A program made the translations under genes and the position numbers. From Candidatus Poribacteria bacterium (GTDB taxonomy: Bacteria; Poribacteria; DTPJ01; WJIO01), in contig WJIO01000301.1 of assembly GCA_014730235.1 (NCBI GenBank), forward strand, positions 1 to 7,290: DNA of 7,290 nucleotides, in the 5' to 3' direction. The notes beneath the pieces are model-generated. The model was not told the DNA's origin, ran no database searches, and saw nothing but the letters and a program-made list of their open reading frames with translations. Shown piece by piece: positions 1,980 through 7,206 of this stretch (position 1 is its first letter; each line of letters begins with the position of its first letter).

Positions 1980-2402
1980 TTACTCGTCGTCATCATCATC
2001 GTCGTCGTCATCATCATCGTCATTTTTGTCGTCATCATTATCATCATCATCGTCGTCATACGATCTTGTTTTTTTCTCGTTATTATCGTTTTCGGACAGC
2101 GAACTTCTCTCCAATAACTTCTCAGCTCTCAGGGTCATGCTTTTAATAATATCATCGGCTAGTCCATAATACCTGTAAAGTTGACTAACAAATTCGGGAT
2201 TTCCATCAAAGTTTATGATTACATAAAAACCGTCTCTGTTACCTTTAACTTCATACGCAAGACGGCGTTTACCCCATTGGTCTATTTTTTTAACCTCTCC
2301 CCCATTACCAGTAATTAGATTCTGGACTCCTTCAATTACTTTATCTATAGTTTCAGAATCGGCTGTTGGGGAAATAATAAAGACAGTTTCATATTTATTC
2401 AC
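1980..2402 (-). CDS. rpsF: 30S ribosomal protein S6 with an encoded poly-aspartate tail
   Basis: S6 pairs with S18 on the 30S platform. Residues 1 to about 95 are a normal S6 domain: MNKYETVFIISPTADSE, then GGEVKKIDQWGKRRLAYEVK, then DGFYVIINFDGNPEFVSQL, then RYYGLADDIIKSMTLRAE. After a linker (about 98-114, with NDNNEKKTRS) comes an extreme acidic tail at 116-140: D6-N-D3-K-N-D12-E, with 21 Asp in 25 residues. In E. coli the enzyme RimK adds a few Glu residues to the S6 C-terminus after translation; this tail is genetically encoded. The start is GTG at 2402, chosen because AGGGAGG lies 8 nt upstream and the family N-terminus fits exactly. It is the first gene of the leftward operon, with a leader of more than 400 nt. 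Confidence 0.97.
   Translation of the reverse strand: MNKYETVFIISPTADSETIDKVIEGVQNLITGNGGEVKKIDQWGKRRLAYEVKGNRDGFYVIINFDGNPEFVSQLYRYYGLADDIIKSMTLRAEKLLERSSLSENDNNEKKTRSYDDDDDDNDDDKNDDDDDDDDDDDDE
1983..2057 (-). repeat. GAY-codon simple-sequence tract encoding the S6 acidic tail
   Basis: Seventy-five bases consist almost only of GAT/GAC codons, broken by AAT, AAA and AAT. In the 12-Asp block (1986-2021) the synonymous codons come as alternating runs of three GAT and three GAC, so the DNA repeats with an 18-base period as well as a 3-base period. This suggests growth by duplication or slippage of a small unit. The tract is a likely place for length variation between strains. Confidence 0.85.
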
Positions 2403-5661: not shown

Positions 5662-6324
5662 TCAGGTAAATGCTTTATTGACCGCATCCAGTAAAGCCTT
5701 TCGCTTTTCGTTTATTGCTGCTTCATGCTGTTTCTGCACCCACTGTTTTACTCCTACTTTTTTAATTTCATTTAAGTTTTTCACCATCTCCTGCATTTTG
5801 GGTTTTTGCAGATGATCACATGTGTCTATGCTTGAACATTCGGCGCAGGTGAAATACCCTTTTTCCTTACAGCACCTGGCTATTTCACAAGGTGGAACAC
5901 AGTTATCACGACAGCCTTTTTTGGGAAATATTTTACTAACCAGTCGGTTAAACGATTCTAAATCCTTTTCAAAGTCTATACAGCATTGAGAAGCTATGTC
6001 CCGCATCAGGGGCCATCCCAGATGCTCTGCTTCATCACGAAAAGCGGCTACCTGCATTATATTATTTAATACTGCCAGATTTGTCTGTATATTAAGACCA
6101 CATATCCCACATTTTCCGCAGTAATTTCCACAGTAACCTACAAGCTCTTCGGGTTTAATCTTAACGTTCTGATATTGAATATCCCCGGATTCTCCTTTTC
6201 CCATATTTTCATCTCCTGATTTATAATTTCCAAACATATCCGACAATAGGGCTGTGGATAAACTTCCCAGCCCTATACAACCAATAAAGCATCTGCGAGA
6301 CATACTGCAATTATTATCGGCCAT
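5662..6324 (-). CDS. Cysteine-rich DUF3795-type protein with a twin-arginine leader
   Basis: The 220-residue protein has 17 Cys and matches the DUF3795 pattern: YCGNYCGKCGIC (64-75), a middle helical part, then Cys138, 142, 146, 151, 152, 160, 163 and 169 in GCRDNCVPPCEIARCCKEKG and CAEC...C. The tail (175-220) is charged and helical. Such spacing suggests metal or iron-sulfur binding, but the family function is unknown to me. Residues 8-28 (MSRRCFIG followed by a short hydrophobic run) resemble a Tat signal. The start at 6324 has AGGAGG 7 nt upstream; the ATG at 6330 would be only 1 nt from it. A second ATG at 6204 (Met41) also has AGGAG 8 nt upstream and would yield a leaderless 180-residue form. 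It lies 18 nt after the Fpg-like gene, in one operon. Confidence 0.8.
   Translation of the reverse strand: MADNNCSMSRRCFIGCIGLGSLSTALLSDMFGNYKSGDENMGKGESGDIQYQNVKIKPEELVGYCGNYCGKCGICGLNIQTNLAVLNNIMQVAAFRDEAEHLGWPLMRDIASQCCIDFEKDLESFNRLVSKIFPKKGCRDNCVPPCEIARCCKEKGYFTCAECSSIDTCDHLQKPKMQEMVKNLNEIKKVGVKQWVQKQHEAAINEKRKALLDAVNKAFT
6202..6217 (-). promoter_or_regulatory. Internal ribosome-binding site and ATG within the DUF3795 gene
   Basis: AGGAG (complement of 6213-6217) is followed after 8 nt by an in-frame ATG (6202-6204, Met41). Initiation here would drop the twin-arginine segment and keep every clustered Cys. Whether it is used cannot be told from sequence. Confidence 0.4.
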
Positions 6325-6342
6325 ATTCATTCCTCCTATTAT

Positions 6343-7176
6343 CTAAGCCTGACAACTTGGACAGAAATACGACGATCCGCCCATATACTGTATCTTTTCA
6401 ATAATTGTTCCACATTCCTGACATGGTTTGCCTTTGGTCTTGCTGTTGAGTATGCGACTGTATCCGCCTTTGTTATTATACAGATCTTTTTCCTCATCCT
6501 TGCCACCCAATTCTATTGCTTCTTTCATGGTTGTTTTGATGGCTTCATAAAGTCCTTTAATCTCGTCATCAGATATTTCAGCCACTACCCTCTTGGGGTG
6601 TATTTTAGCCCTGAATAGTATATCCTGCAAGTATCCGTTACCAATACCCGGCATTTTCTTTGGGCCTGTAATCATAAAGGCTTTTATGCTTTTCTTTTCC
6701 CTTTTTTCGTATGACTTAATAAGCTGATGGAAGTAATCAAAGGTAAAATCATGGCTTATAGGTGACAGAATTTTCTGGGTCGCATGACGATCTGTGGCTA
6801 CTTCCGATTTTTCCACAATTTTTATAAACCCCCATCCCTGGATAGAAACGGTTAGATATGTGTTATCCTCAAAATGCAGCATTAGATGATATTTATCCGG
6901 TATTGTTTCATCATTTTGATGAAACAATATTTTTCCACCCATATCACCCAGCAATAGAGCGTATCCGGGTTCCAGATTGGTTATTATCCATCCTGCGTTT
7001 CCTGATATTTCTCCTACAGTTTTACCCGGCAATATTCTTTCAAATTCTTCAGCATCCCGGTTATAAAAAGCCCATTTATGCTGACTGTTACCCCGGTTAC
7101 CTGATTTTATTGTTTTACCCTTAATTTCCTTATTCATCTGTTTAGCGATTGTCAAGACTTCCGGCAGTTCAATCAT
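6343..7176 (-). CDS. Fpg/Nei-family DNA glycosylase-like protein lacking the catalytic proline
   Basis: The 277-residue product has the full Fpg/Nei layout: a N-terminal beta-sandwich (about 1-120), a helix-two-turn-helix core with KKMPGIGNGYLQDILFRAKI (173-192), and a C-terminal zinc finger CQEC...CPSC (252, 255, 272, 275). In active Fpg and Nei, Pro2 is the nucleophile that forms a Schiff base with the lesion. Here the protein begins MIELPEVLT, so residue 2 is Ile, while Glu3 is kept. The Lys of the RRGKYL-type strand reads GNAGWIITNL (59-68), the DPRRFG-like loop reads SIQGWGFI, and the zinc-finger Arg is absent (GGSSYFCP). It therefore probably binds DNA but has altered or no standard glycosylase/lyase activity. 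The ATG at 7176 has AAGGAG 9 nt upstream. It is 30 nt after the upstream gene and 18 nt before the DUF3795 gene. Confidence 0.85.
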   Translation of the reverse strand: MIELPEVLTIAKQMNKEIKGKTIKSGNRGNSQHKWAFYNRDAEEFERILPGKTVGEISGNAGWIITNLEPGYALLLGDMGGKILFHQNDETIPDKYHLMLHFEDNTYLTVSIQGWGFIKIVEKSEVATDRHATQKILSPISHDFTFDYFHQLIKSYEKREKKSIKAFMITGPKKMPGIGNGYLQDILFRAKIHPKRVVAEISDDEIKGLYEAIKTTMKEAIELGGKDEEKDLYNNKGGYSRILNSKTKGKPCQECGTIIEKIQYMGGSSYFCPSCQA

Positions 7177-7206
7177 TTCGTTTATCTCCTTTTAATTAAA
7201 AAGACA

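Follow-up and report, generated by a model that had tools for sequence, protein, structure and literature searches.

Fpg/Nei enzymes are taught as enzymes of oxidative damage whose nucleophile is an N-terminal proline (or valine), and a gene on the minus strand of the window (the whole stretch of 7,290 nucleotides that was analysed) raises the question of what such a protein does when that residue is replaced, as its product begins Met-Ile-Glu. At stake are the mobility of the catalytic amine and the identity of the lesion that is repaired, in anaerobes, by the subfamily to which this protein belongs. The relevant features are as follows.

6343-7176, minus strand: Fpg/Nei-fold protein of 277 aa with a Met-Ile-Glu N-terminus (MIELPEV...), from the ORF list, Pfam, alignment and AlphaFold2
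7168-7176, minus strand: Met1-Ile2-Glu3, with Ile at the Pro2 position of Fpg, in a register that is the same in 110/110 distinct homologues
7186-7191, minus strand: Shine-Dalgarno AAGGAG 5' of the ATG (sequence reading)
7192-7194, minus strand: in-frame TAA (sequence reading)
6376-6423, minus strand: zinc finger to Gly-Gly turn (C252-x2-C255 ... G266-G267), with Gly267 for Fpg Arg259 (sequence, alignment)
6349-6363, minus strand: second CxxC of the zinc finger (C272, C275) (sequence, alignment)
6829-6840, minus strand: Q113-G114-W115-G116, at the place where Fpg has its Arg109/Phe111 wedge (DPRRFG) (sequence, alignment)

The gene and its departures from Fpg and Nei

The coding strand around the start reads TTT AAT TAA AAG GAG ATA AAC GAA ATG ATT GAA, with a stop in frame six codons 5' of the ATG and the Shine-Dalgarno motif at 9 nt; as there is no alternative start codon between the TAA and the ATG, Met-Ile-Glu is forced as the N-terminus. 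The first-pass annotation had allowed for an upstream start or a sequencing error that would restore Met-Pro-Glu, the former being ruled out by the TAA and the lack of another start and the latter by 110 distinct homologues without Pro2. An ordinary Fpg with an error of this kind might be suspected given that the source is a single metagenomic assembly, but the start is forced and finished isolate genomes carry a Met-bulky-Glu N-terminus too (for example L043 Anaerocolumna and L055 Oceanirhabdus), so this explanation is refuted with near certainty. A pseudogene is also ruled out; the ORF is intact and the catalytic acids are invariant across phyla, which agrees with the earlier description of an undecayed gene with a good Shine-Dalgarno and no breaks.

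The three Pfam domains Fapy_DNA_glyco, H2TH and zf-FPG_IleRS all score over cut-off, and Glu3 and the four cysteines are kept, in line with the fold markers that had been claimed. The best structure match of the AlphaFold2 model (pLDDT 95.8, pTM 0.91) is B. stearothermophilus MutM (1r2y; Z 29.9, rmsd 2.0 Å, 266 residues), and Ile2 superposes on MutM residue 2; this structural comparison, which had been suggested as a check, is joined by sequence alignments with E. coli Fpg and Nei that confirm the loss of Pro2. Domains and structure match together place the protein in the Fpg/Nei (H2TH) fold superfamily. No solved structure of any subfamily member was found, the nearest being that of L. lactis Fpg.

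Alignment with E. coli Fpg reveals changes of P2 to I2, K57 to G62, H71 to G, R109 to Q113, R110 to G114, F111 to W115 and R259 to G267, whilst E3, E6, M74 (M79), K155 (K165), N169 (N180) and the four cysteines are kept. The DPRRFG loop is IQGWG, and the earlier reading that Pro2, the lysine, this loop and the zinc-finger arginine are all replaced is therefore confirmed (Ile2, Gly62, IQGWG, Gly267). The 277-aa protein scores far under the cut-off of each NCBIfam equivalog model for Fpg and Nei. The Fpg models give 139 bits (cut-off 212) and 134 bits (cut-off 203) and the Nei (Endonuclease VIII) model 58.8 bits (cut-off 252), and in the alignment the protein also lacks the Pro2 and Lys53 of Nei. 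The protein shares with bacterial Fpg/MutM (TIGR00577, PRK01103) the fold (Z about 30 to 1r2y, 27% identity), Glu3, Glu6, Lys155, Asn169, the H2TH and the four-Cys zinc finger. In contrast the subfamily lacks Pro2, Lys57, His71, Arg109 and Arg259, has Tyr/Trp for Phe111, a shorter lesion loop and a predicted mature N-terminus one residue longer, and lies under all equivalog cut-offs; it is thus set apart from Fpg/MutM proper by Pro2 (Ile2 here, and proline in 0/110 members), Arg109 (Gln113), Arg259 (Gly267) and equivalog score.

In Fpg, Arg259 binds a DNA phosphate. Arg109 makes the contact to the cytosine opposite 8-oxoG (PMC5422863). Given the absence of both arginines and a shortened lesion-recognition loop, the protein probably acts on some lesion other than 8-oxoG:C that anaerobes meet, and the changed substrate proposed by the first-pass annotation would seem likely.

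A widespread branch and its sister clade

A scan of genome contigs with the single sequence gave no match, whereas an alignment-based scan found at least 517 candidate relatives among genomes taken one per species. The 80 that were kept come from Chloroflexota, Bacillota, Bacteroidota, Spirochaetota, Planctomycetota, Aminicenantes, KSB1, WOR-3, Bipolaricaulota, Atribacterota and methanogenic archaea, that is from many phyla of largely anaerobic hosts. Occurrence in the sampled genomes is patchy (Clostridia 8/148, Chloroflexota 2/151, Bacteroidota 2/198), and only two of 58 relatives within the source organism's own phylum have the gene. Members form a clade separate from the Pro2/Ala2 types (SH-aLRT 100), which supplies the phylogeny of MIELPEV-type homologues that had been called for, and all 110 members compared are without Pro2; the protein almost certainly belongs to a distinct subfamily, as first suggested, and this is apparently a widespread, unstudied branch of Fpg/Nei. 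E3, E6, K165, N180, G116, G225 and G237 are invariant in 110/110 distinct members. The group probably matches CDD cd08975 (BaFpgNei_N_3), a bacterial Fpg/Nei subgroup that is uncharacterised and in which a hydrophobic residue takes the place of Pro; among the papers searched, none named the family or mentioned cd08975.

A strong canonical Fpg is also encoded in 9/30 host genomes and was not found in the other 21, so the subfamily cannot be seen simply as a substitute for MutM, nor as a degenerate version of it. The source genome (5.5 Mb, 92% complete) has a single Fpg/Nei protein, the one described here, and three HhH-GPD proteins, one of which is an Nth over cut-off; the other two fall below cut-off, with monofunctional glycosylase and 3-methyladenine-glycosylase as best models, and none of the three reaches the cut-off for MutY or Ogg. 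Taken as a whole, a subfamily of anaerobes and methanogens that is often the sole Fpg/Nei protein found in a genome breaks the nucleophile rule consistently.

The sister clade (n=13: L123, L125, L126, L134, L135, L147, L151-L154 and L220-L222, the last three from archaeal genomes) has the motifs MPELPEI or MAELPEI, FWWFG and GST-S. It resembles the subfamily in having lost Arg109 (Trp in 13/13) and Arg259 (Thr in 12/13) and in having Gln/His and Asp at E. coli positions 173/174 after the H2TH Asn, but differs in that Pro2 (Ala2 in Clostridia), Lys57 and Met74 are kept. As the classical register and Lys57 persist in all 13, the N-terminal change is a single event that came after the loss of R109 and R259, and the tree places one single change of register between the Pro2/Ala2 types and the subfamily. 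Three clostridial sister proteins (L134, L135, L147) start Met-Ala-Glu, a predicted N-terminal Ala there replacing the Pro nucleophile in the classical register.

One Clostridia-class genome (G171; loci L133, L143, L145, L147, L148) carries several subfamily copies and an Ala2 sister-clade copy. H2TH glycosylases are also present in archaeal genomes (L047 and L083, from named methanogens, and L220-L222), contradicting a review in which they are missing from Archaea (PMC8307549). A phage gene was considered and rejected: members occur on two human-gut 'Bacteriophage sp.' contigs (L010, L011), which are unverified and probably bacterial DNA, and two IMG/VR scans gave no match.

The N-terminal register and the candidate nucleophile

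The N-termini of 110 distinct members were compared. Met-bulky-Glu is found in 105, with residue 2 being Ile in 55, Leu in 26, Phe in 16, Met in 4, Tyr in 2, Lys in 1 and Val in 1, and the other five have Met-(Ala/Gly)-bulky-Glu; in alignment register, residue 2 across the family is thus Ile, Leu, Phe, Met, Tyr, Trp or Lys, once Val and never Pro (0/110). No N-terminal extension occurs among the 110, no other in-frame start is possible in 71 and an SD-like motif precedes 98. The Ala/Gly five (L020, both L028 copies, L246 and L247) are all from WOR-3, mostly with a clear Shine-Dalgarno, and form one clade (SH-aLRT 96) in which the extra residue is present and Lys57 still remains (5/5); in the Met-type group Lys57 is mostly Gly, Ser or Ala (Lys 7/105, Arg 16/105) and the Met74 position is often deleted. 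The two L028 genes lie in tandem at 802-2500 of a WOR-3 contig, both with Met-Ala-bulky-Glu.

Methionine aminopeptidase takes off Met only where the next residue is small and uncharged (PMC3154147), so with a bulky residue 2 family-wide Met1 is very probably retained in the Met-bulky-Glu members, and the N-terminal Ile alpha-amine envisaged earlier is probably wrong. Val is rare at this position, making up 1/56 of Ile+Val where other Ile-rich columns have 25%, but this depletion can do no more than hint that Met is retained, the test being weak because column 4 is also without Val. In the WOR-3 clade, removal of Met should expose Ala/Gly exactly at the Met1 position and give the same mature length. 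The reactive N-terminus should therefore lie a residue beyond its place in all enzymes of the fold studied so far. NEIL3 is alike in having a non-proline N-terminal residue and an N-terminal primary amine; its Val2 is, however, exposed by Met removal and its sequence similarity to the subfamily is very weak, whilst residue 2 in alignment register, being bulky in all but one of the 110, is predicted not to be exposed in this way.

Catalysis in the Fpg/Nei fold combines protonation of O4' by Glu3 with an attack on C1' by the N-terminal amine, and in hNEIL1 P2G it is the Gly2 primary amine that bonds to C1', with Glu3 near O4' (PMC10164570). With its bulky neighbour at residue 2, Met1 would be deformylated yet not removed, leaving a free alpha-amine one residue outside the Pro2 position. 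As the least certain step, and with Glu3 protonating O4', the Met1 amine (in the WOR-3 clade that of Ala or Gly) might then attack C1' of the flipped nucleotide, so that a Schiff base forms and AP-lyase cleavage follows. The constant mature length suggests that the N-terminal amine matters, and together with invariant Glu3/Glu6 it favours a shifted nucleophile, with a monofunctional enzyme a close rival.

In the monofunctional case Glu3/Glu6 would activate water, the amine would not be the nucleophile, the AP site would go to an AP endonuclease and the N-terminus would be short only because it is buried. M. smegmatis Nei2 P2A retains full 5-hydroxyuracil glycosylase but no lyase, and E3A abolishes glycosylase (PMC11323726); Pro2 is similarly lost in the subfamily while Glu3/Glu6 are invariant, and an XthA-like nuclease gene is nearby in two loci. 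However, K51A of Nei2 abolishes both activities (PMC11323726) and the equivalent Lys is gone from most Met-type members, whilst even the Ala/Gly clade holds to the register. We regard this as a serious possibility that falls somewhat short of an even chance. The shifted amine has points against it too, since NEIL3 is inactivated by unprocessed Met (PMC11323726), and by analogy with the essential Lys of Nei2 the loss of Lys57 in most Met-type members would also count against Met1, whose amine we can name as nucleophile only tentatively.

Whichever the nucleophile, the subfamily protein would quite probably be enzymatically active, an enzyme being favoured by invariant Glu3/Glu6 and the need for Glu3 in excision by Nei2. 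A DNA-binding-only or sensor protein, recognising lesions without chemistry, would fit a protein that lacks Pro2, Lys57, Arg109 and Arg259 yet keeps the DNA-contact residues Lys165 and Asn180, but is improbable because Glu3 and Glu6, which act in chemistry alone, are invariant in 110/110 across phyla. An AP-site shield, in which the Met1 amine forms a long-lived AP-site adduct in the manner of HMCES/YedK without glycosylase, would be compatible with an N-terminal amine that is free and has a conserved Glu close by; it is more improbable still, as there is no Cys2 for a thiazolidine, the loci hold no pointer to it and the Fpg-like base pocket is kept. Of the roles put forward by the first-pass annotation, the distinct subfamily therefore stands, a changed substrate is likely and a different nucleophile plausible, whereas an N-terminal Ile and DNA binding alone are disfavoured.

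The account we prefer, a little below evens as a whole, is of an active DNA glycosylase with its amine shifted out, Met1 the likeliest nucleophile and a substrate other than 8-oxoG. These might possibly, if rather doubtfully, be the first DNA glycosylases to use a retained initiator Met alpha-amine as Schiff-base nucleophile, having a single origin among Pro2-type ancestors whose N-terminal register shifted by one residue, perhaps by an Ala/Gly-first intermediate as in the WOR-3 clade, in anaerobes and for a non-8-oxoG lesion. As far as is known the register shift, the predicted retention of Met1 and the stepwise origin are new here, whilst the sequence group itself is probably known.

Gene neighbourhood and the rest of the window

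The gene had been credited with a tidy operon place, a claim that now looks weak: a DUF3795-like gene begins 12 bp downstream but is not conserved beside homologues, and a conserved operon can be rejected as no synteny is universal among the homologue loci. A defence system was similarly rejected, with no PADLOC match. The gene is accompanied in a few Lachnospiraceae loci by a WYL regulator and a Zn_ribbon_2 protein, to which a radical SAM protein or an XthA-like nuclease is sometimes added; in one Lachnospiraceae locus, L040, its companions are a WYL regulator, a radical SAM gene and a nuclease of the Exo_endo_phos (XthA-like) type. These neighbours would fit DNA repair but are not universal.

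The downstream neighbour in the window (5662-6330, minus strand) encodes a Cys-rich DUF3795-like protein, under the Pfam cut-off, with a twin-arginine-like N-terminus. At 2538-2561 lies the palindromic GTCATTCCTGCGAACGCAGGAATG, a REP-like repeat with more than 200 near-copies dispersed in the source genome (227 forward matches at no more than 2 mismatches, against 0 for the reversed control). Finally, the gene at 1980-2402 (minus strand) encodes ribosomal protein S6 (bS6), whose C-terminal tail consists almost entirely of Asp (DDDDDDNDDDKNDDD...).
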